Assembly: GCA_026398735.1 (NCBI GenBank)
Contig: JAPLSH010000007.1
Coordinates: forward strand, 24,146 to 88,145
Length of the DNA stretch: 64,000 bases
Source: Pseudomonadota bacterium
Lineage (GTDB): Bacteria; Pseudomonadota; Gammaproteobacteria; Steroidobacterales; Steroidobacteraceae
Reading direction: 5' to 3'
Shown: piece after piece, positions 1 through 10,929 of the stretch
How positions within the stretch are numbered: the stretch's first letter is position 1
Layout of the letters: each line of letters begins with the position of its first letter
Notes under the pieces: generated by a model
The model's input: only the letters and a program-made list of their open reading frames with translations
Database searches by the model: none
Told to the model about the DNA's origin: nothing
Program-made: the position numbers and the translations under genes

Positions 1-86
1 CAGAGTCCATAATCAGCCTTGTTTTAAGCCTATTTCCGACGAATTTTCCTCCCATTGGTTCGCTGGAGTCCGTTAGAATCCATCGA

Positions 87-100
87 AAGAACGTGGGTAG
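87..100. repeat. 14-bp direct repeat, left copy (candidate att or integrase arm site)
   Basis: The sequence AAGAACGTGGGTAG lies just before the integrase start and recurs exactly at 10773-10786, next to the tRNA-Ser gene at the other end of the accessory region. Repeats of this kind near an integrase gene can be attachment cores or arm-type binding sites. No copy of the tRNA 3' end is seen in positions 1-114, so the role as a core site is unproven. Confidence 0.45.
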
Positions 101-114
101 AAACGGGGGTAAAT

Positions 115-1350
115 ATGGCAAGGCTAGTTCAAAAGCTTAGTCCTTTGATGGTCACCAAACTGACCGAGCCGGGCTACTACGGCGACGGAGCAGGCCTATT
201 GCTGCAAGTTTCGCCCTCCGGCTCCAAGAGCTGGCTGTTCCGATTCGCGAAGGCTGGCCGGGAGCGCCAGATGGGTCTTGGGTCCATCCATGCCGTCACG
301 CTCGCACAAGCGCGAGAGTTGGCCAGGGACTGTCGGCGGCACTTACTGGCGGGGCGCGACCCGATCGAGGAGCGCAAGGGAGCACGAGCAGCCCAACATC
401 TGCTGGACAGTCGCCGGGTAACTTTCGACCAGTGCGCCAAGGGGTACATCGCCGCCCACCGGGACAGCTGGAAAAGCAGCAAGCATGCGGCCCAATGGAC
501 CAGCACCTTGGCCGCCTACGCCAGTCCGCTTATCGGCGCCCTGCCGGTCGCAGAGGTCGATACGGCACTGGTGGTCAAAGTCCTCAGCCCGATCTGGCAA
601 AGCAAGACTGAGACGGCATCCCGACTTAGGGGACGCATCGAATGCATCCTAGACTGGGCATCAACCAGCCAGTACCGGCAAGGAGAGAACCCCGCCCGCT
701 GGAGGGGGCATCTTGAGAACCTCCTAGCAAAGCCAGCCAAACTTGCAAAGGTCGTTCATCACCCCGCGCTCCCTTGGCAGTACATAGGCGCGTTCATAGC
801 GGACCTGCGTGAACGCCAAGGCATCGCTGCCCGAGCCGTCGAATTTGCGATCCTGACGGCCACCAGATCCGGCGAAGTACGCGGCGCGACTTGGGAAGAA
901 GTCGAGGGCAACGTATGGACGATCCCCTCAAATAGGATGAAAGCCGGCAAAGAGCATCGCGTCCCGCTATCAAGCGCTGCGATGGCATTGCTGCAAGAAA
1001 CCCCAAGATTGGATCGGCTGATCTTCCCCGGCACGAAGAAGAACGCCCCCCTCTCCGACATGAGCCTTACGTCCGTCCTGCGGCGCATGAATCGCGACGA
1101 CATAACAGTCCACGGATTCCGATCGACTTTCAGAGACTGGTGCGCGGAATCGGTGGCAAACTCTTTTCCGCGAGAGGTCTGCGAACACGCACTCGCGCAC
1201 AGCCTGCCGGACAAAGTCGAAGCAGCGTACCGGCGGGGTGATTTATTGGAGAAGAGAATCCTGTTAATGCAGGCATGGTCTGACTACTGCGCCATTATTC
1301 CTGCAAAAGATAATGTTACGCCGATACGGGGAATTTCAATCGGACGTTGA
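115..1350 (+). CDS. P4-type tyrosine recombinase / integrase
   Basis: This is a site-specific tyrosine recombinase that would integrate and excise the element downstream of it. The N-terminal part (about residues 1-100) matches the arm-binding domain typical of P4-like integrases (DUF4102), with YYGDGAGLLLQV and the RQMGLGS stretch. The catalytic domain shows Arg in TATRSGE (about residue 251), H-x-x-R in HGFRSTFRDW (about 333-336), a further His near 362 and the Tyr nucleophile in EAAYRRGD (about 372). The length of 411 aa is normal for the family. An upstream in-frame ATG exists at position 55, but ATG 115 is preferred because GGGGG lies just before it and family members start this way. The gene reads into the island, and the five following genes run the same way. 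The catalytic set appears complete, so the enzyme could be active. Confidence 0.93.
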   Translation: MARLVQKLSPLMVTKLTEPGYYGDGAGLLLQVSPSGSKSWLFRFAKAGRERQMGLGSIHAVTLAQARELARDCRRHLLAGRDPIEERKGARAAQHLLDSRRVTFDQCAKGYIAAHRDSWKSSKHAAQWTSTLAAYASPLIGALPVAEVDTALVVKVLSPIWQSKTETASRLRGRIECILDWASTSQYRQGENPARWRGHLENLLAKPAKLAKVVHHPALPWQYIGAFIADLRERQGIAARAVEFAILTATRSGEVRGATWEEVEGNVWTIPSNRMKAGKEHRVPLSSAAMALLQETPRLDRLIFPGTKKNAPLSDMSLTSVLRRMNRDDITVHGFRSTFRDWCAESVANSFPREVCEHALAHSLPDKVEAAYRRGDLLEKRILLMQAWSDYCAIIPAKDNVTPIRGISIGR

Positions 1351-1787: not shown

Positions 1788-2314
1788 ACGTCTATCTGGC
1801 CGGCAAGATAGGCTCGCGGGACTTCCGCTACGACCTGGTACCGGGGCTTCGTGGACGGACTTGGAACGATGGCCCGATCATTTGTCCGGGCTTCACCTAT
1901 GTCGGGCCATTCTTTGTAGCTTGCGACCACCAGTGCGCGCATGGCCCTGCCACACACGGGGCGTTGATCCCGACAGCGAACGGCTGCGGCGCTGACTCAC
2001 TGACCCATAGGCAGATCTACGAGGCGAACCAGGCCGCCCTAGAATCTGCGTCGCTGGTGTTCGCATATATCGACGGGACAGAGTGTAACGGGACGCAGTT
2101 TGAAATCGGATGGGCCACCGCGAAAGGCGTCCCAATAATCATCATCTTCTCGCCCGATATAGACAAGGGTGAGTTCTGGTATTCCACGATGCCGACGGAG
2201 TTCACCGCCGTTGCATCGCGAGAGGAACTGCCCGCTCTCTTCGCTCGATTACTGCACCGTTTCGCCACACGCGATGACCGCCCGGCTGCTCGCAAGCGTC
2301 GGGTGCGCAAATGA
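1784..2314 (+). CDS. Nucleoside 2-deoxyribosyltransferase-like protein
   Basis: This 176-aa protein starts with the Rossmann-like strand MNVYLAGKIG and carries the family signature around FAYIDG..CNGTQFEIGWA followed by KGVPIIII. Glu in FEIGWA is the likely nucleophile by analogy with nucleoside deoxyribosyltransferases. These enzymes move deoxyribose between bases or cleave nucleosides. The start at ATG 1784 is set by a 4-bp ATGA overlap with the preceding gene; a longer open frame upstream (from 1676) only shadows that gene. In a mobile element it could modify nucleotide pools or act in phage competition, but no such role can be read from the sequence. The C-terminus is basic (RKRRVRK). Confidence 0.65.
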   Translation: MNVYLAGKIGSRDFRYDLVPGLRGRTWNDGPIICPGFTYVGPFFVACDHQCAHGPATHGALIPTANGCGADSLTHRQIYEANQAALESASLVFAYIDGTECNGTQFEIGWATAKGVPIIIIFSPDIDKGEFWYSTMPTEFTAVASREELPALFARLLHRFATRDDRPAARKRRVRK

Positions 2315-4497
2315 ACTGGCCCACGCTCCTGGTCATGCTGGTACGCCGTAACGGCGACACCAGAAAAGACAGCGGCAAGTCTTATGACCAAATCTCGCTG
2401 ATGGAGCTGTTTGCTCTGGCAGGCAATCCGTCGGCCGAGGCGAAGGGTGCCGGAAGCGCCATTATCCCTTCCGATTATAATGGCTTTGATGCTCGCGCTT
2501 ATAAGGCCCAGCGCCAACACGGACGTTATACCGCGATCTGCGGGGACATCGACAATGGCAATCACTCTCTGGAGGCACTCGGCGAACTTGTGGACGCATA
2601 CTTCGGACCCGTGGCGACGCTGATCTACAGCACCTCCAACGCGACGCCTGAAAATAAACGGTGGCGCGCAATCGTGCCCCTGGAGCAACCGCTGTCATTT
2701 CAGGAGTGGTATGACGCCTCGATGGCGTTCTACGCTTATATGACGGCCAACGGTGTGCTGATGGATCGGTGCATGGCCAGACCCGCGCAGTTGGTCTACA
2801 CGCCCAACGTGCCGCTCGAACGGCGGGGGCCGGAAGGAAAGCCGCTGTTCTATGAATACGAGGTTACTGACGGACCCGGTGCGGACCCCAGCTTCCCCGT
2901 GTTCAGCAAGTGGACAGCAAAACTCCGCGAGCAGCGGGAGGCCGACGAGCAACTGAGAGATGCCGCACGCGCGGAGGCTTCAGCTGCGCGGCAGGAACTG
3001 GGCACATCCGGCGGGGGTGGCGGGATCGGCGCATTCAATGCTGCTAATGGCATACGGGACCTGCTCGCCAAGTACGGCTACGTTGACTCACCGCAGCGTG
3101 ACGATGACTGGCGCTCACCGCACCAGACCAGCAATAGCTACGCGACGCGCGACTTTGGCGACCATTGGGTGTCGTTATCGGAATCAGACAAGACAGCAGG
3201 GCTCGGCATCGAGACCAAAAGCGGAGCCAGAACGGGCGACGCTTTCGACCTGTACTGTCATTACGAGCACGGCGGGGACTTCATCGCTGCACTACGGGCG
3301 GCTGCCACCACCGCGTTGATAGACCCGGCGCGGCTGCTGCTGGCCAGGCTTGAGGCTGATGCAGCTGCTGCGGCCGGCGCGGGGGCTGATGCTGCTGGCG
3401 CGGAGGCTTCTGCTGATGCGGCTTCCTCGCCACGGTACAAGCTGCTCACCGCGGCTGAAATGGCCGGCCGTCCGCCCGTAGAGTGGTTAGTCAGTGGGGT
3501 GCTGCCCCGCACTGGGCTTGCGGCAATCTATGGCCCTTCTGGCTCCGGGAAGTCATTCCTCGCACTGGACATGTTCTGCGCCATCGACCGTGGTGTCCCC
3601 TGGTTTGGCCGAAAGACCAAAAAAGCCCCGATCACATACATCTGTCTTGAAGGAGCGGCGGGCCTTGGTCAGCGCATGGCGGCGTACCTGAAGCGGTTCG
3701 GTACGCTGTCGAGCCAGATACGGGTAGTCGTACAGCCAATGAACCTGCTGACAGCGGCTGATGTCGCAGATATGGCACACGCGATCCTGACGGCCGGCAT
3801 GGCGGGAGGGGTCGTTTGCATCGACACACTGAACCGGGCTAGCCCCGGCGCTGATGAAAACGCCCCGAAAGACATGGGTCAGATAATCTACGCCGCTCAG
3901 CAGCTACAGTTGCTGGTCGGGGGCGTTGTTGTGCTGGTCCACCACACGGGCAAGGACGAAAGCAGAGGCCTCCGTGGGCACACAAGCCTGGCCGCGTCGC
4001 TCGACGCAGCAATTGGAGTCTCCCGCACGAAGACGGAGCGAACGTGGTTTATCGGCAAATCCAAGGACGGGAACGATGATCTGGAAGGCACGTGGCAATT
4101 GGAGACCATCACCCTAGGCACCGACGAGGACGGCGAGACGATCAGTTCGTGCGTCGTGCAACCAGCCAGCAGCCCCGCGTGGCCATCGCTGCAACCGCTG
4201 TCGGCTTACGCGAAGCAGGCCGTGGCCGCGTACCAGGCCTGTAGCGCAACCGTCGGCGGGAAAGGCGTGCATATAGACCTTTGGCGTGAGGCGTTCTACC
4301 AGAGCACAACAGCCACCACGGATGCCGCCCGAAGGAAGGCCTTCCAACGTGCCCGTGATGAACTGTCTGAGAGAGGACTGCTGGTGGTCGATGGGGACCT
4401 GAACCACCTCACCGACGAGGGAATTGGGGCGTTCACATTCGCGAGTCAAACTCTCAGCAGCATTCTCATCCCCGCCCTCGCCGGGCTCCAATCATGA
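2311..4497 (+). CDS. Primase / RepA-like hexameric helicase fusion (element replication protein)
   Basis: This 728-aa protein is probably the replication initiator of the element. The N-terminal half resembles replication-associated primase-like domains, with an acidic motif in AICGDIDNG (about residue 78) and NKRWRAIVPLEQP. A low-complexity Ala/Gly/Asp linker lies near residues 345-370. The C-terminal half is a RepA-type RecA-fold ATPase, with Walker A GPSGSGKS (about residue 408), Walker B VVCIDTL (about residue 501) and LVHHTGKDESRGLRGH, a typical feature of the group. It overlaps both neighbours by 4 bp (ATGA). A cluster of iteron-like repeats begins about 15 bp after its stop codon and is a natural candidate for its binding site. 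Confidence 0.8.
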   Translation: MNWPTLLVMLVRRNGDTRKDSGKSYDQISLMELFALAGNPSAEAKGAGSAIIPSDYNGFDARAYKAQRQHGRYTAICGDIDNGNHSLEALGELVDAYFGPVATLIYSTSNATPENKRWRAIVPLEQPLSFQEWYDASMAFYAYMTANGVLMDRCMARPAQLVYTPNVPLERRGPEGKPLFYEYEVTDGPGADPSFPVFSKWTAKLREQREADEQLRDAARAEASAARQELGTSGGGGGIGAFNAANGIRDLLAKYGYVDSPQRDDDWRSPHQTSNSYATRDFGDHWVSLSESDKTAGLGIETKSGARTGDAFDLYCHYEHGGDFIAALRAAATTALIDPARLLLARLEADAAAAAGAGADAAGAEASADAASSPRYKLLTAAEMAGRPPVEWLVSGVLPRTGLAAIYGPSGSGKSFLALDMFCAIDRGVPWFGRKTKKAPITYICLEGAAGLGQRMAAYLKRFGTLSSQIRVVVQPMNLLTAADVADMAHAILTAGMAGGVVCIDTLNRASPGADENAPKDMGQIIYAAQQLQLLVGGVVVLVHHTGKDESRGLRGHTSLAASLDAAIGVSRTKTERTWFIGKSKDGNDDLEGTWQLETITLGTDEDGETISSCVVQPASSPAWPSLQPLSAYAKQAVAAYQACSATVGGKGVHIDLWREAFYQSTTATTDAARRKAFQRARDELSERGLLVVDGDLNHLTDEGIGAFTFASQTLSSILIPALAGLQS

Positions 4498-5153
4498 GCC
4501 GCATCAAGCCTGACATGCGGGACATTAGCGAGACATGTCCCGCATTTGTCCCCCGGACTAAGGGGGACATGCGGGACACACCCCTTAAGGGGTGTCCCCT
4601 TGTCCCTGTCCCGCTGTCGGTAACGGATTCTTTTAGCCCAAACCCACCGCTGGTTGAGGGGACCGTCCTTCAACGGGAACGAAGACCAGCCACGGCCCGA
4701 TACGATGCTGCCGCACTCTGGCCCGTCATCCTCCATGACATCGCAAACGGCGCTGCCCTCTCGACGGCATTGCAGCGACTCAGTCCCGCCCCGTCCTACT
4801 GGTGGGCCAAGGACTGGCTCCGTCGGGACGCTGACCTCAAGTCCCGCTATATTCAAGCCGTGGAAGATCGTGCTGACCGTTTAGCCGAGGAACTGATCCA
4901 GCTAGCGGACACGCCCATGCCGGCGGGTCTAGATGGCCCGTCTTCGTCGGCGTGGGTACAACTACTGCGCGTCAGAATCGACGTTCGTAAATGGGCCGCG
5001 TCAAAGCTGAAGCCAAAGGCCTACGGGGAGCGATTGGATGTTTCCGTGACAGAGACCCGCATCAGCATCTCTGCTGCGCTGGGCGAGGCTCAGAGGCGAC
5101 TACAGAATAATGCGACGATTGATGCCCCTACGTTAAAGGATCACGCCCCATGA
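4494..5153 (+). CDS. Phage terminase small-subunit-like DNA-binding protein
   Basis: The 219-aa product has a basic central part resembling small terminase subunits of the Sf6 gp1 type: a helix-turn-helix-like stretch (LSTALQRLS..YWWAKDWL), then EDRADRLAEELIQLAD and the signature RIDVRKWAASKLKPKAYGERL (the family pattern is R-x-R-x-D-x-R-K-W-x-A-S-K). Small terminases recognise packaging sites and hand DNA to the large subunit; no large subunit is present here. Its first 50 codons coincide with a dense set of inverted repeats, giving the odd peptide repeat DMRD. It overlaps its neighbours by 4 bp on each side. In satellites such as SaPIs a lone small terminase redirects helper packaging, and that reading is an inference here. 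Confidence 0.6.
   Translation: MSRIKPDMRDISETCPAFVPRTKGDMRDTPLKGCPLVPVPLSVTDSFSPNPPLVEGTVLQRERRPATARYDAAALWPVILHDIANGAALSTALQRLSPAPSYWWAKDWLRRDADLKSRYIQAVEDRADRLAEELIQLADTPMPAGLDGPSSSAWVQLLRVRIDVRKWAASKLKPKAYGERLDVSVTETRISISAALGEAQRRLQNNATIDAPTLKDHAP
4512..4612. repeat. Iteron-like repeat cluster with nested inverted repeats (candidate origin or packaging site)
   Basis: Eight copies of GGGACA or its complement TGTCCC occur at 4519, 4536, 4547, 4564, 4573, 4593, 4601 and 4607. They are arranged as an 11-bp-arm inverted repeat (ATGCGGGACAT 4515-4525, ATGTCCCGCAT 4535-4545), an 8-bp-arm one (TGTCCCCC 4547-4554, GGGGGACA 4562-4569), and an 18-bp perfect palindrome (ACACCCCTTAAGGGGTGT, 4578-4595). 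A 13-bp direct repeat, GACATGCGGGACA, starts at 4512 and 4566. The cluster lies at the start of the terminase-like gene and right after the primase/helicase gene. Confidence 0.8.
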
Positions 5154-5866
5154 ATATTTTCGAAGGCTCTAGGCGAATTGCCAAGGTTGCTGCGGGAATC
5201 TGGGTGATCGGCTTTGGTATCGCAGCGCTAAACGTGTCCCCAGTAGTTAGCGTGACTTACGCGATCGAAGGGTCTACGCGTCCCCCAACGTTAGCGACGA
5301 AATGTCCGGATGGATCAAAACCAATCTTGGTAGAAGGCAGCACCAAAAAACTGATTCACGTAGATGTAACTGCATGTTATCTGCTCGACAACCCTGTCTC
5401 ACTCCTTAGGGATCCAAATTACGTCAACGCCGACGCCGCAACGAAGCAAGCTATTTTCGACAAGCAAATCGCGCAAGATCCGGACTTCATTAACGCCAAC
5501 ACGGCAACCAAGAATGCAATACGCCAACGGTTCGGCATTTCATCGGCAACGCGACAGAAGACCAATCTCGAACCGAATGTCTTTGACCAATTTGATCCTG
5601 ACGTTTACCTGGCAAAAAAGACCGCAGATTCTGATGCGTATTTGGCAGACATAGAAACCAAGGCGAGCAATTTCAGGATTCCTGAAGGCGACTATCCACA
5701 AATAGATAGCCAATGGCTGCCTGCACTCGGAGTCGCGCTACTACCAGGACTCGCTTGGATGCTCGCAGGCCTTGCTGCTCTCTGGACCTTCTCAGCGGGC
5801 CTAGGCTGGATCGTCCGGGGCTTCATGGGCATACCGCGGGGTCAAGACACAAAGACCAGCGCCTAA
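5150..5866 (+). CDS. Two-segment membrane protein with DPxF/Y-type repeats, unknown function
   Basis: The 238-aa product has a hydrophobic segment near residues 13-33 (AAGIWVIGFGIAALNVSPVV) and a second hydrophobic region near 190-228, leaving about 150 polar residues between them. Two related units, DPNYVNADAATKQAIFDKQI and DPDFINANTATKNAIRQRFG, lie in the middle (about residues 84-126). Units of this kind are known from some large phage and effector-like proteins, but no function follows from them. The start overlaps the previous stop by 4 bp, so this is the last gene of the satellite-like operon. Codon use and GC are lower than in the genes before it. Confidence 0.6.
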   Translation: MNIFEGSRRIAKVAAGIWVIGFGIAALNVSPVVSVTYAIEGSTRPPTLATKCPDGSKPILVEGSTKKLIHVDVTACYLLDNPVSLLRDPNYVNADAATKQAIFDKQIAQDPDFINANTATKNAIRQRFGISSATRQKTNLEPNVFDQFDPDVYLAKKTADSDAYLADIETKASNFRIPEGDYPQIDSQWLPALGVALLPGLAWMLAGLAALWTFSAGLGWIVRGFMGIPRGQDTKTSA

Positions 5867-5970
5867 CGCGCGTATGAGGGTGGACTGAATCGGAACAGAA
5901 CACTTCGCCCAGCTACAAAGCTTTTTGCACCCTCGTTGTTAATGCCAGAGAAATCCAGCAAGGTGAGACT

Positions 5971-6017
5971 GGAAAACTCTAAACTCAAACGCTACTGAAG
6001 GTGGGGGGACGTCGGCA
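5971..6017 (+). repeat. IS3-family end sequence, left copy of a 47-bp inverted repeat
   Basis: This 47-bp segment is the reverse complement of 7853-7899 with one mismatch. The right copy covers the last codons (TGKL, stop) of an IS3 transposase remnant plus the downstream terminal region, so this copy is the 3' end of a related element in the opposite orientation. The transposase body is missing here. Confidence 0.8.
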
Positions 6018-6140
6018 CACCGCTGAGATATTCGGGTCCGTTATCGCAGCGTATGGTCTTGGGTCTGCCGCGCCAGTCGATGATCTGCTCCTAAGACCGG
6101 GTGACCTACTTGCTGGCAATGACAGATCGATTGACCTTCG
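6012..6140 (-). pseudogene. IS3-family OrfB transposase remnant
   Basis: Read on the minus strand, this stretch encodes pieces such as EQIIDWRGRPKTIRCDNGPEYLSG, cut by stop codons. DNGPEYLS contains the second catalytic Asp region of IS3/IS2-type DDE integrases. Only a central fragment survives, with no start, no end and several disruptions. It differs in sequence from the transposase piece at 7888-8337, so at least two IS3-type elements have decayed here. Confidence 0.7.
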
Positions 6141-6178
6141 GAGCTGGTAGCTAGGGATATCTGACGGGTAACCCGGCG

Positions 6179-6565
6179 CTAATTATTCTTGTACCAAGTC
6201 GGCGTTATAACCCTGCCTGGTTCTGTCCCCTTCAGATACGCCGCGTACGTGTCGGGGACATCGGCATACCAGCTGCATGGCAATTTTGGACCGAAAAACT
6301 CCGTTACACAGATGTCGATCCATTCCACTGCTTCCCCGCTCTCCTCGCGGTGGGTAGTCAGCCCCTTTTCTTGCCAGAACTCGACAATCTCCGCGATATC
6401 AGACGGACTCATCGCCCCCTCTCGGTAAAGATGCTCGTCATACCAAGAGCTCATACCAATGTCCCCCTCGGCATCCTTCAGAAATTGATCCCACCCGCCT
6501 GGATACTTCGCGCGGATAGCATCAATCCTGACCAAGACACTTATGAATTGGAGCGCAACTGCCAT
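6179..6565 (-). CDS. Small conserved protein of unknown function
   Basis: The 128-aa product is soluble, acidic and rich in Trp and Tyr (KYPGGWDQFLKD, GAMSPSDIAEIVEFW, LPCSWYADVPDTYAAYLKG). It has the look of a small globular family scattered through accessory regions, and I do not know a function for it. The start is ATG 6565 with AGGA about 7 nt upstream. It sits alone between IS3 remnants and is transcribed away from the lipoprotein gene on the same strand. An immunity-type role is possible for such orphan acidic proteins but nothing here demonstrates it. Confidence 0.65.
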   Translation of the reverse strand: MAVALQFISVLVRIDAIRAKYPGGWDQFLKDAEGDIGMSSWYDEHLYREGAMSPSDIAEIVEFWQEKGLTTHREESGEAVEWIDICVTEFFGPKLPCSWYADVPDTYAAYLKGTEPGRVITPTWYKNN

Positions 6566-6695
6566 ATTTGTATCCTATATCTGCCAAAAGCTGCGTCAGC
6601 CCGCTTTTCCATCAACGAGGCGCCCATGCCACCGACGGAAAGCAATCGGAGAGAGCAGTAAATTTTTTATTAATAATAAAATCTTCATTGATTAT

Positions 6696-7703
6696 CTACT
6701 GAAATGTTGTCCTGGCTCTAAATTGAAAGCAACCTTCAACTGGGTTACCATCAATTGTAGCTGGAGCATAAATTAAGGTTCTAGCATATTTTATAGCGCT
6801 TGTGTCCAAGTCAATATCTCCGCCAGATTCAACTATTGTAGCGGAAGAAAAATTCCCGTTTTTATCTACACAGGCCTTCACAATAACAGCCCCGGAAAGC
6901 TTTAATTTACGCACTCTGGCAGTAATAAATTTCTTCGAGTCAGGCTGGGGACTGCCAGGACGCAGTCCTGCCGAAACAATCAACGGCTGCCTAGTTGCAA
7001 TGGCCGCGGGGTCACTGGCCGGCGTGGTTATCTCAGCAGTGCTCTTATCGGGTACAAATGTCGCCGCAGGACCGGCTGACTTATTTGGCACCCCCCCTTT
7101 TCCAGCCGGCTCCATGCGAGCAGCCTCCGAATCACAGGCACCCCCAGATCTATTGAGCAGATATACGGAAATTCCTCTTATGGCTAGATCAATTGGGTCA
7201 CACACACCGGGAGGCTTATCTATTATATCAAAATATATAGATTGATATTTTTCAGGAAAAGCGACAGACGGGAGCGCGCCACCTAACGGGACATACCCAG
7301 AATTCGAATAGAAAATCTCGCTAGATAAGGCAAAGATCTCACCAACCTCTCTATTAGCTTTTTGCGAAAGGTCATTGATTTTTAAATTGTACTTATCAAG
7401 ATATTGAAATACGCGACTAATGCAAATCGCAGCACCCGCTCGATTCAAGGACATCCTCTCAAATCGCGCCCTCTTCTGATCTTGCTCTGTCTTTGACCTA
7501 AGACTATCCAAAAAGCGCTCTTGAATTTTCACTAACTCGGACTGCACGGTTTTTTGACACAGTTCATATGGCTTTTTGAAATCTTTTTCTACCCCGTCTA
7601 CCAATTCCGAGATTCCTGGGTTTTTCAAATCAGTTCCCGCGCATCCCCCAGAGGCAAAGAGTAGGGCGAATAATGCAAACCCAGCGTTATTTCTATTCTT
7701 CAC
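6696..7703 (-). CDS. AT-rich lipoprotein with TonB C-terminal-like domain
   Basis: The 335-aa product starts with GTG at 7703 behind AAGGA (spacing about 7). The N-terminus is a lipoprotein signal (FALLFASGGC), so the mature protein would be anchored at a membrane facing the periplasm. Residues about 30-180 form a Lys/Glu-rich helical part, followed by a flexible Pro/Ala/Thr linker. The last 75 residues (SGAVIVKACVDKNGNFSSA.., then IDGNPVEGCFQF) match the TonB C-terminal/energy-transducer fold, which binds peptidoglycan or partner proteins. Two Cys flank that domain. No ExbB/ExbD genes are near, so energy transduction is doubtful. The low GC compared with the core genome suggests transfer. 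Confidence 0.7.
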   Translation of the reverse strand: MKNRNNAGFALFALLFASGGCAGTDLKNPGISELVDGVEKDFKKPYELCQKTVQSELVKIQERFLDSLRSKTEQDQKRARFERMSLNRAGAAICISRVFQYLDKYNLKINDLSQKANREVGEIFALSSEIFYSNSGYVPLGGALPSVAFPEKYQSIYFDIIDKPPGVCDPIDLAIRGISVYLLNRSGGACDSEAARMEPAGKGGVPNKSAGPAATFVPDKSTAEITTPASDPAAIATRQPLIVSAGLRPGSPQPDSKKFITARVRKLKLSGAVIVKACVDKNGNFSSATIVESGGDIDLDTSAIKYARTLIYAPATIDGNPVEGCFQFRARTTFQ

Positions 7704-7899: not shown

Positions 7900-8337
7900 G
7901 GTCATTGTAAGTGCCTTTTCGGCCATCTGTTTTACGTAAGCGGCGGGCGTCAGCCCGGCGAGTGCTCGTTTGGGTCGCTCTTAGTTATATTCCTGCAGCC
8001 ATTTCTCGATCACCACCCGGGCGTGCGGCAGGCTGGTGAACCAGTGCTCGTTCAGACACTCGTCTCTGAGCCTGCCGTTGAACGACTCGATATAGGCGTT
8101 CTGGTTCGGCTTGCCCGGCTCGATTAGCTTCAACGTCACGCTGTTGCGGTAGGCCCAGTTGAGTATCGCCTTGCCCGTGAACTCCGCTCCATTATCCGAA
8201 CGGATAATCGACGGTCTGCCACGTTGGGCGCAGACTTGATCGAAGATCCGTGTGAGCCGATCGTCAGCGATGCTGTGCTCGGACACAACGGCTACTGCTT
8301 CATGTGTGGCGTCATCGACCACCGAAAAGAGGGGGGA
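7888..8337 (-). pseudogene. IS3-family OrfB transposase, C-terminal part with a nonsense mutation
   Basis: The frame reads VVDDATHEAVAV.. (first catalytic Asp), RSDNGAEFTGKA (second Asp) and NAYIESFNGRLRDECL (catalytic Glu), which is the DDE core of an IS3-family transposase. It then meets a TAA in WLQEYN-stop, beyond which the normal family ending continues in frame (ERPKRALAGLTPAAY ..) to the true stop at 7888-7890. About the first two thirds of OrfB and all of OrfA are missing. The broken 5' edge abuts the end of an integron cassette gene near 8340. Confidence 0.85.
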
Positions 8338-8342
8338 TTACC

Positions 8343-8792
8343 TTAGGTGTCGTTTTGTTCTGCTGGAAGCGGAGGAGGCTGGCGCTTCTTCGCCAGCCAC
8401 CAACACCCGCGAACGCCATAAACCAACATAACGCTGAGGAAGAAATAGAAGAACATCCATCCGAAGTTCGTGGTGCCGCCGACCAGCTTAAACAGGACCT
8501 CGACGATGAGCCAAACTAGAACTAGCGAAGCAACAAGCCAGCCTTTTCCAACGTAAACACGCCAAGCAAAGAACAGGAGAATGGGGATGTTGATGAATGC
8601 GCCGATGAGGTGCTGTTGAACGCCCTGAGCATTGACCGTGGATCCATCCACTGGACTCTTGCTTGCGAAGTACACAAGCACAACGCCCAGAAGGTTCATT
8701 GCTGCAAATAGGAGAACTCCAATTGCCCCCTGCTTCGTGAGCTTCTTGGCGTCTTCCTCCGACTCGATCTTCGGGATCCACTGACTCGTCAC
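8343..8792 (-). CDS. Integron cassette 3: small multi-pass membrane protein
   Basis: The 149-aa product has four hydrophobic segments (GVLLFAAMNLLGVVLVYFAS, LIGAFINIPILLFFAW, WLVASLVLVWLIVEVLFKL, WMFFYFFLSVMLVYGV) and a Pro/Gln-rich cytoplasmic tail. GTG 8792 is preferred as start because AAGGAG lies 6 nt before it; a TTG at 8828 would make the Shine-Dalgarno coding. An attC site lies directly upstream and belongs to the previous cassette. Its own attC should follow the stop at 8343, but only an ACCTAAG-like start is left before IS3 debris begins, so the cassette is truncated. Function unknown. Confidence 0.65.
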   Translation of the reverse strand: MTSQWIPKIESEEDAKKLTKQGAIGVLLFAAMNLLGVVLVYFASKSPVDGSTVNAQGVQQHLIGAFINIPILLFFAWRVYVGKGWLVASLVLVWLIVEVLFKLVGGTTNFGWMFFYFFLSVMLVYGVRGCWWLAKKRQPPPLPAEQNDT

Positions 8793-8844
8793 TGCACTCT
8801 CCTTAGCTGGTGAGCTCTCGACGCCCAATCCTGCTGCGACCGAA

Positions 8845-8932
8845 GCCTAACGGCTTCGCTGAGCGCCGCGCGCACAGTTACATGGGTTGGGCACTTTACG
8901 GATCACGAGAGCGCTCCAGCGATTTGTTAGAC
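8845..8932 (-). other. attC site of integron cassette 2
   Basis: On the minus strand the site begins with R'' GTCTAAC (8932-8926) and ends with R' GTTAGGC (8851-8845), fitting RYYYAAC and GTTRRRY. Inside, CGCTGGAGCGC pairs with GCGCTCAGCG leaving one unpaired G, the extrahelical base typical of attC hairpins. The length is 88 bp. It follows the stop codon of the gene at 8938-9348 within a few bases. Confidence 0.9.
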
Positions 8933-8937
8933 GGCGC

Positions 8938-9348
8938 CTAGTTGCAGTTTGAGCGGACATCTGCGACCGCTGATTCGTAGTCGTACTGAGCGTTTTTAAC
9001 GCGGCGGAACTCCGTGCTGCAATCATCGGACATATCGCCGCTCTCCGCACAGTTCTTGAGCCGGCGTGCGTAATCGGCTAGTTCAGAAGCTGCGGATTTC
9101 GCGCGCTCCCGCGCATCACGGCAATCGCTCGAGTCGTCGTCGGAGCTAGCGCTTCTGGCACGCATAACGCGAGCCATTGCGATCACCTCCTTCTGCTCTT
9201 GCGGAGTGAGCTGCTCCAGCTTCTTTTGGCCTGCAATCACCGCACGATAGTTCGCGACCGCGCGCTGATAATTTAACTCCTGCGCGAGCGTCGGAACTGC
9301 GAACGCCAGGATGATCGCGAGTACCACGTGACGAACCAGTATGCTCAA
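8938..9348 (-). CDS. Integron cassette 2: small exported protein
   Basis: The 136-aa product starts at TTG 9348, which has GGAGGGGG about 7 nt upstream. An ATG at 9369 would overlap the attC site of the previous cassette and would make that Shine-Dalgarno coding. The N-terminus (VRHVVLAIILAFAVPTLAQ) is a cleavable signal peptide. The mature part is helical and highly charged with four Cys (SSDCRDARERAK, LKNCAESGD, SDDCSTEF, C-terminal NCN), suggesting disulfide bonds in the periplasm. It is probably read from a promoter upstream of the array. Function not recognised. Confidence 0.65.
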   Translation of the reverse strand: MSILVRHVVLAIILAFAVPTLAQELNYQRAVANYRAVIAGQKKLEQLTPQEQKEVIAMARVMRARSASSDDDSSDCRDARERAKSAASELADYARRLKNCAESGDMSDDCSTEFRRVKNAQYDYESAVADVRSNCN

Positions 9349-9367
9349 GGTAGCCCCCTCCAGCGCC

Positions 9368-9494
9368 ATCTAACGGCCCGCATCAGCGACTGGGCGCCAC
9401 TCGTGTGGCGCACGGTCGTTGACCTCAAGCCTGCTGTGACAGCCGGGCGCGTGCACTTTATGGTGATCCAGATCGCTGCATGCGGTTGTTAGGC
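9368..9494 (-). other. attC site of integron cassette 1
   Basis: On the minus strand R'' is GCCTAAC (9494-9488) and R' is GTTAGAT (9374-9368). CCGCATGCAGCGA near R'' pairs with TCGCTGATGCGG near R' with one extrahelical G, as expected for a folded attC. A second hairpin (GCGCCAC..GTGGCGC) lies inside. The length of 127 bp is within the family range. Confidence 0.9.
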
Positions 9495-9515
9495 GGCACA
9501 CGAAGGTCGAAGAGG

Positions 9516-9878
9516 CTACACCCATCTCCGGACCGCCTCGGTGCTGTCAGCCGGTGATGAGTTGAAGCATATCTTGGCATTCGGCGCATGGGTATGAACG
9601 ATGTTTAGCAATTTCTCAAACAGAAGCAACTTGTCTGCGGCCCGTAGCCCGGCACCGATTAGCACGCAGTCATAAGACTGCTTAATCAAATATTGCGTGG
9701 TAACAGCTTCGGCCGTCTCACCTAAATCAACCAAGCAGTTTTGCACGATGTAGCCAGAGCTTCGCAGCCGCTCCAACTGCGACTCAATGAAGGAACGGAC
9801 AAGCTCCGGAGTTAGCTCTGGATTGTTTGGAAATTGCACGAAGGCCGGATCGAGACCGAGAGCTAGTACGCTAGGCAT
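9516..9878 (-). CDS. Integron cassette 1: conserved hypothetical protein
   Basis: The 120-aa soluble product (MPSVLALGLDPAFVQF.., VDLGETAEAVTTQYL, YDCVLIGAGLR, AKICFNSSPADSTEAVRRW) has an alternating strand-helix pattern like a small Rossmann-type fold and resembles a widespread uncharacterised family. AGGAG lies 7 nt before ATG 9878. It is the first cassette of the array, next to the attI-like site, so it would be the best expressed one. No catalytic motif was recognised. Confidence 0.65.
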   Translation of the reverse strand: MPSVLALGLDPAFVQFPNNPELTPELVRSFIESQLERLRSSGYIVQNCLVDLGETAEAVTTQYLIKQSYDCVLIGAGLRAADKLLLFEKLLNIVHTHAPNAKICFNSSPADSTEAVRRWV

Positions 9879-9978
9879 ACTTCGACTCCTGTGAAATGAC
9901 CGCTGACGCTAACTTATACATTGGGGACCTGGATTTGTTGGATCGGGCGTCAATCTGATTGCGCAAACGCTTCGTGCC

Positions 9979-10112
9979 GCCTAACTATTAATTGGGCGTT
10001 GGCGATGCAATTGTAAAAATGGGCGAAGACGTCGCATAAGCCGCTCCCCGATCTTGTAGTCCGATGATTCTCTTGTTTCCGACGCTGCGTTAATCACACG
10101 CTGGAGAATCAC
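9979..10112 (-). other. attI-like region of a degraded integron
   Basis: GTTAGGC (minus strand, 9985-9979) is a perfect core for cassette insertion and lies between the intI remnant (start codon at 10113, plus strand) and the first cassette gene. No matching R'' partner with the attC fold is seen on its intI side, only GATTAAC-like sequence at about 10091-10097, which favours attI over attC. The distance of about 130 bp from intI fits known integrons. Confidence 0.6.
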
Positions 10113-10374
10113 ATGGACGACAATTCATTAAAAACGCTGCCGAGTTTGTGGAGCAACGCCACCGCACCGGACCACTCCCCTCCCCCCTTCCGACCCGAAC
10201 CGGCCGCGCAATTTCTCGGGGCGTTCCCCCACCAGATCCGCGCCCGCCCTACAACTATTCCACTGAGGAAGCCCACCAGCAGTGTGTGGCGCGTTATGTC
10301 CGTTTCCACCCGGAATTGGGCGTTGCAGGCCGTAGTCTTGCTGTTTCGCCATCTGCTGAAATCGCCGCTCAATG
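10113..10374 (+). pseudogene. intI: Integron integrase intI, frameshifted and truncated remnant
   Basis: GGAG precedes ATG 10113. Read with frame changes, the sequence gives AAQFLGAFPHQIRARP, then in another frame YNYSTEEAHQQCVARYVRFH (10250-10309), then back in the first frame RNWALQAVVLLFRHLLKSPL (ending near 10370). These follow the order of the N-terminal SAM-like domain of IntI proteins (HYSxRTExxYxxWIxRYIxFH and QALNALxFLYRxVL). The block between them is shortened, and the entire catalytic domain is absent. Its orientation, divergent from the cassettes, is the standard integron layout. The sites can therefore only be mobilised by an integrase supplied from elsewhere. Confidence 0.7.
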
Positions 10375-10772
10375 ACAGACAAATGGAAAGTGGAATTTTT
10401 ACTGATCCACGCCCGATTCACCGGCTGACCGGAGCCAGGCCCAACGCAGCGGTCTGTCATGCGGGAATACGTTCGTCTCGCCGTGGCAACCGCGAAGCAA
10501 CTGGGAAAACGCCCTCGGTGATCCACTGATCGCCGGACGCCTCGAGGCAACCTAGCGGTCAGACCACTAGCTTCTGGCGGAGTGGACCCTCGGATTTGTT
10601 TCGCAAAAAAAATTAAAACTGGTGCGGACCCTGGTAGAGCCATTGGCCCACCTGCAAGGCCCGCCCCCCCTCTACTAGGCTCAGACAATAGTTTCTTACG
10701 TTCTGAGATTGATCTTCGGCATGCCATTCACACCCGAAGAAAAGGCATTGCTGCCCCAAGATCGGCGTGGGT
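10375..10772. other. Gene-free stretch between the intI remnant and the island boundary
   Basis: Several overlapping open frames run through this region on both strands, but none has a recognisable domain, a good start or a consistent composition. A short frame from an ATG at 10372 breaks after 18 codons, and one near 10719 breaks after 17. I see decayed sequence here and nothing I can name. Confidence 0.6.
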
Positions 10773-10786
10773 AAGAACGTGGGTAG
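10773..10786. repeat. 14-bp direct repeat, right copy (candidate att or arm site)
   Basis: This is an exact copy of the sequence at 87-100. The shorter unit CGTGGGTA also occurs just before it at 10766-10773, giving two tandem copies here. It lies 52 bp from the 3' end of tRNA-Ser. Confidence 0.45.
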
Positions 10787-10838
10787 CTTGGTAGTTCCAG
10801 AATAAATCCCTTTAAAATCATTGATTTAATAAAGGAAC

Positions 10839-10929
10839 TGGCGGAGAGAGAGGGATTCGAACCCTCGAAGGGCTTTTGACCCTTACACCCTTAGCAGGGG
10901 TGCGCCTTCGACCACTCGGCCATCTCTCC
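10839..10929 (-). tRNA. tRNA-Ser (anticodon GCT)
   Basis: The minus strand folds into a class II tRNA. The acceptor arm GGAGAGA (10929-10923) pairs with TCTCTCC (10849-10843), followed by the discriminator G and an encoded CCA (10841-10839). The anticodon loop contains CTGCTAA with GCT as anticodon, followed by a long variable arm and the T arm GGTTCGAATCC. It follows csrA on the same strand, the same neighbourhood as serV after csrA in Escherichia coli. Accessory DNA begins just beyond its 3' end, as expected for a tRNA integration hotspot. Confidence 0.97.

Follow-up and report, generated by a model that had tools for sequence, protein, structure and literature searches.

The locus described here raises the question of how gene cassettes outlast the integrase of their integron and how integron fragments reach other mobile elements. 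Decayed integrons are in general common and well described. Nearly one third of intI genes were found to be pseudogenes (PMC2426708); Xanthomonas integrons are often inactivated, with one lineage carrying a truncated intI amid transposases (PMC12444791); clusters of attC sites lacking an integron integrase (CALINs) are a defined and common class (IntegronFinder 2.0, PMC9024848); and phages and prophages can carry integron fragments (PMC9892861). In the window, by which we mean the whole 64-kb stretch of DNA that was analysed, we found an intI that is truncated and frameshifted, followed by the leader and attI and by an array of three cassettes with two attC sites. This locus is almost certainly the surviving attI-proximal part, or stump, of a sedentary chromosomal integron that lies within a tRNA-Ser integrative island of approximately 10.9 kb and whose distal array was cut by insertion-sequence (IS) debris. 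It represents a clean case of integron decay: a sister species carries the intact orthologue, the closest relative shows the site unoccupied, and the stump itself retains three uncharacterised cassettes. A sequence-only reading of the same DNA had proposed a degraded integron of the standard layout, and all of its structural elements (the pair of attC sites, the site of attI type, the remnant of a divergent intI and the minus-strand cassettes) were recovered in our analysis; what that reading lacked were the tRNA-Ser island, the truncation of the array by an IS and the intact orthologue in the sister species. None of the tests run yielded an observation that contradicted the integron assignment.

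The attC sites were evaluated using two independent covariance models, from both of which the window was excluded: R1, consisting of 30 attC sites from family and genus members, all in arrays that adjoin an intact intI gene, and R2, consisting of 11 long-type attC sites from two congeners. Both sites are oriented on the minus strand, so that their bottom strand is the plus strand of the window. The 88-bp attC2 (8845-8932) scored 82 bits on the plus strand with R1 (E=4e-20), compared with 13.3 bits for the best unrelated match within the window, and the 127-bp attC1 (9368-9494) scored 103 bits on the plus strand with R2 (E=4e-22). The genome-wide covariance search that the sequence-only reading had proposed thus placed both sites far above background, and scans of the 2.77-Mb genome with R1 and R2 revealed no further convincing attC, the next R2 match having an E value of 1. 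Additionally, a scan of the 64 kb for RYYYAAC/GTTRRRY motifs plus a stem gave these two sites alone as top scores, against a background of 0.05 expected per shuffled window at a score of at least 26. DNA comparison showed that attC2 shared 72-78% identity with approximately 17 array attC sites of a family member (G018) and others, and that the 127 bp of attC1 matched an array attC of the congener G007 at 81% identity along their whole length. The folding z-score was -3.7 for attC1 and -0.7 for attC2; because the fold energy of attC2 is by itself thermodynamically unremarkable, hairpin energy was dropped as support for this site, for which the evidence is homology. The extrahelical base occupies a conserved position (unpaired column 78 of alignment A1). 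A single extrahelical G had been claimed, and one unpaired base is indeed present, which is a G on the cassette-coding strand but a C on the bottom strand, the attC strand expected to recombine.

On the other side of the array, blastn aligned window positions 9976-10309, leader included, with 84% identity over 336 bp, together with a second block, to the integron of a congeneric metagenome-assembled genome (contig CANGMU010000107.1, loci L024 and L089) that encodes an intact 349-aa IntI. The cassette-side end of this homology was located exactly at GTTAGGC (9985-9979, minus strand), the expected crossover; from this motif the homology runs into intI, whereas the cassette-side DNA differs, as expected at G^TTRRRY. 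The attI-like site noticed earlier was also read directly in our analysis and is upheld by homology to the attI region of the congener and by the break at the crossover. The attI/promoter leader (9986-10112) is followed by the intI remnant (10113-10360, plus strand; blastn and tblastn), which comprises the N-terminal third of the gene, frameshifted and with a large internal deletion. In particular, tblastn resolved it into three out-of-frame pieces corresponding to IntI residues 1-48, 23-80 and 87-116, without the whole catalytic C-terminal half, and neither the R-H-R-Y catalytic residues nor the IntI-specific patch of a functional integron was found here. Mismatches were distributed over the three codon positions as 16/84, 16/82 and 25/81, along with the frameshifts and the large deletion. 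The broken plus-strand intI, divergent from the array, was correctly recognised in the sequence-only reading insofar as IntI pieces align, but it ends at approximately 10360 and not at 10374. That reading had also named its own refutation, namely attC sites at background level together with a frame that does not align to IntI, and this combination did not occur. The search for a functional intI elsewhere, which it had likewise suggested, found no intact IntI in the genome, where the catalytic C-terminal region matched Xer-type proteins only; an IntI HMM search was blind to the remnant, and most of its matches were Xer C-termini.

Cassette limits were set with crossovers at G^TTRRRY. Cassette 1 (9374-9984, minus strand), bounded by the attI and attC crossovers, contains a 120-aa ORF (9516-9878); cassette 2 (8851-9373, minus strand), bounded by attC crossovers, contains a 143-aa ORF (8938-9369) with four Cys residues and, by eye, a signal-peptide-like N-terminus; and the truncated cassette 3 (8343-8850, minus strand), which starts at the attC2 crossover, contains a 161-aa ORF (8343-8828) that by eye resembles a membrane protein. 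These boundaries agree with the earlier description of three minus-strand cassettes pointing away from attI, and all three ORFs are open. The protein of cassette 1 has homologues of 56% identity in one family genome and 53% in a Bradyrhizobium plasmid; its homologues, spread over a few proteobacteria and actinobacteria, do not lie in recognisable integrons, and no attC was found at their loci. Homologues of cassettes 2 and 3 were found in none of 98 relatives, and Pfam, PHROGs, NCBIfam and PADLOC gave nothing informative for the cassette proteins.

IS debris truncates the array at 8342/8343. The stop codon of cassette 3, in CACCTAA, abuts an IS-end-like sequence, and the cassette has therefore lost its own attC; ACCTAA could be the first six bases of the R'' box of that lost site. 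The abutting 26-bp sequence (8317-8342; GGTAATCCCCCCTCTTTTCGGTGGTC on the minus strand) is 25/26 identical to a second copy elsewhere in the genome, where it lies at a synteny breakpoint between the present genome (G000) and its closest relative, G002. We also observed that the 26-bp sequence GGTAATCCCCCC(T/G)CTTTTCGGTGGTC recurs at rearrangement breakpoints, namely at window positions 8317-8342, L027:5739-5764 and L056:5574-5599, and it is probably the end of an IS. Next to it lies the C-terminal part of an IS3-family transposase with a premature stop (7981-8322, minus strand; NCBIfam transpos_IS3, E=2.6e-29, profile positions 239-352 of 369).

The surroundings of the stump had been taken to be simply gene-poor; in fact, they form a mobile island at a tRNA-Ser gene, with an integrase and phage-satellite-like genes. 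The tRNA-Ser that served as the integration target (10842-10929, minus strand; anticodon GCT by reading) scored 60.5 bits with the Rfam tRNA model, and the Rfam search of the region gave this tRNA alone, plus a sub-threshold plastid family overlapping it. The 15-bp repeat CTGGCGGAGAGAGAG, which corresponds to the tRNA-Ser 3' end, is present as an exact right copy at 10838-10852 and as a left copy outside the window, at C18:24076-24090, 70 to 56 bp ahead of its first position. The closest relative is 97% identical to the window from 10832 on and, on the left, 96.7% identical to the sequence that precedes the window as far as C18:24090, and the two flanks are contiguous in that genome, which thus carries the empty site. 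Since the flanks are joined there and the repeat occurs once there and twice here, approximately 10.9 kb has been inserted; a run of 27 N separates the left repeat from the window start, so that island continuity on this side rests on scaffolding. From left to right, the island contains a tyrosine integrase (55-1350, plus strand; Pfam Arm-DNA-bind_3, Phage_int_M and Phage_integrase), a primase/helicase-like gene (2311-4497, plus strand; Pfam AAA_25, E=2.3e-34; PHROG 906 DNA polymerase/primase, E=1.4e-40), a small-terminase-like gene (4494-5153, plus strand; Pfam Sf6_terminase, E=8e-20; PHROG 1482), and then the IS debris and the integron stump. In every other congener examined, the DNA next to this tRNA-Ser is different, which marks the site as an insertion hotspot. 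The segment 55-5866 as a whole has the appearance of a small integrative element with phage-satellite-like gene content that includes a deoxyribosyltransferase-like protein, and an A+T-rich segment of the island (47% G+C) encodes a 335-aa protein with a TonB C-terminal domain (6696-7703, minus strand). The stretch of approximately 480 bp that separates the intI stump from the tRNA-Ser (10361-10837) lacks recognised homology; its 20 bp adjoining the tRNA-Ser resemble sequence beside the same tRNA in the congener G003 and are a possible attachment arm.

Chance inverted repeats resembling attC, combined with a spurious intI frame, would be an almost inconceivable origin of this locus. The fold energy of attC2 alone is not unusual, as noted above, but the independent covariance models, the homology to array attC sites and the intact platform of the congener refute this explanation. 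A more substantial alternative is that the integron stump arose independently of the tRNA-Ser insertion, either because an integron already beside the tRNA-Ser was trapped by a satellite or because two elements accreted. The tRNA end of the island is occupied by the integron and the opposite end by the integrase, and the G+C content of successive island segments is 59%, 47%, 56% and 53%, as independent origins would allow; however, the repeat core occurs in only two copies, at the outer ends, the intact integron of the congener adjoins chemotaxis genes and not tRNA-Ser, and no congener with available sequence has an integron beside this tRNA. We therefore regard independence as unlikely, although the island and its stump may be two elements stacked by successive insertion.

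The leader of the integron stump poses a separate problem. Over attI and leader (9979-10112, attI core included), the window differs from L024:5994-6128 of the congener G005 by 5 mismatches in 134 bp (129/134, 96.3% identity), whereas the adjoining intI remnant has 57 mismatches over the next 247 aligned positions (77% identity; Fisher p=1.7e-7); the alaS region of the same two species is approximately 75% identical. The same leader was found in no other genome among 217 family genomes and not in viral_contigs. This contrast suggests either that the leader remained constrained once the integrase was lost or that the ancestry is mosaic, and because only one genome pair carries the leader, selection and mosaic ancestry are inseparable. 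If the leader, with the cassette promoter Pc, were under purifying selection after the loss of the integrase, the frozen cassettes would be expressed and useful and the dead integron would be domesticated. We consider this a tentative possibility: in a control pair of the same genus with intact integrons and intI genes 74% identical, the leader was not alignable, in a second intact pair it was only slightly more conserved than the coding sequence (89% versus 84%), and the three open cassette ORFs fit as well, but the leader is confined to a single genome pair, a consensus scan gave no match to Pc within it, it forms no stable fold, and recombination could produce the same contrast. Neither a structured RNA (z-scores of 0.55 and 0.05, no stable fold) nor a short minus-strand ORF, open in both genomes but with most differences changing the amino acid by reading, was retained as an explanation of the leader. 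Recombination mosaicism, in which leader and intI remnant differ in age and selection is not implied, is plausible, though we would not call it probable. Recombination beside integron platforms is documented, as in Xanthomonas, where identity changes abruptly between ilvD and intI (PMC12444791), and the integron sits in mobile DNA; nevertheless, identity falls without a sharp junction, intI is still approximately 88% identical by eye over its first 25 bp or so, and we found no donor whose intI is similar. The fullest version of the constraint reading, in which the integrase-less integron is kept as a fixed expression platform, with approximately 134 bp of attI/leader under strong purifying selection and the three frozen cassettes domesticated as cargo of a satellite-like tRNA-Ser island, appears improbable to us. 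The conserved leader beside a decayed intI nonetheless provides a concrete test of whether a cassette promoter outlives its integrase.

Compared with known systems, the relic belongs to a known kind: it is a CALIN plus a truncated intI, with a frozen cassette array. Attributes of the ancestral integron are all present, including attC sites, attI adjoining intI and a divergent gene of the IntI family, of which only the N-terminal remnant is left. As in the sedentary chromosomal integrons of Xanthomonas (PMC12444791), there are a divergent intI, an attI and an attC array, with inactivation of intI (there frequent, through frameshifts, stop codons or deletions) and relocation associated with IS; in contrast to them, intI is here reduced to its N-terminal third, two attC sites are left, and the locus is a tRNA-Ser island and not a fixed locus such as ilvD. 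As in CALINs (PMC9024848), two attC sites, the threshold number, accompany cassettes with no functional intI nearby, but here attI, the leader and the intI stump persist, and they make it possible to orient the array and to assign it to its parent platform. As in the integrons and CALINs of prophages and phages (PMC9892861), an integron fragment lies inside a phage-type integrative element, although the carrier, judged from its genes alone, resembles a small satellite or island (integrase, primase/helicase and small terminase) and not a full phage. A further counterpart is the integron of the congeneric metagenome-assembled genome Jr-28jun17-52 (CANGMU010000107.1, L024), which shares the 96% identical leader, the same attI, an orthologous intI and the same two attC types, but has an intact intI and other cassettes and lies beside chemotaxis genes.

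Judging from intact relatives of identical architecture, the lost IntI would once have inserted cassettes one by one at attI. Without it, the array would be unable to gain or shuffle cassettes and thus frozen. Transcription of cassette 1, and perhaps of cassettes 2 and 3, may continue from the predicted leader promoter, and the attC sites are probably still usable by an IntI supplied in trans, because their sequence and hairpin are kept.

Within the genus, intact intI was found in two of nine members (G005 and G007), and attC sites without an intact intI in four genomes (G000, G003, G004 and G006), to which contig breaks contribute. No full-length match to cheB was found in the present genome or in G002, and the chemotaxis neighbourhood of the congener's integron appears to be missing in the present genome. 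G007 carries a large integron of at least 17 attC sites in two length classes (approximately 88 and 127-135 bp; loci L080-L084 and L025), spread over contigs C259, C402, C136, C44, C394 and C176. In G006, contig C43 (L087) contains a tRNA-Thr (5256-5331), a decayed phage-type integrase (approximately 5561-6439) and a solitary attC (6639-6726). No repeat of the tRNA-Thr end was found near this attC, which, lying beside a decayed tRNA-adjacent integrase, is possibly a second integron fragment in a tRNA island.
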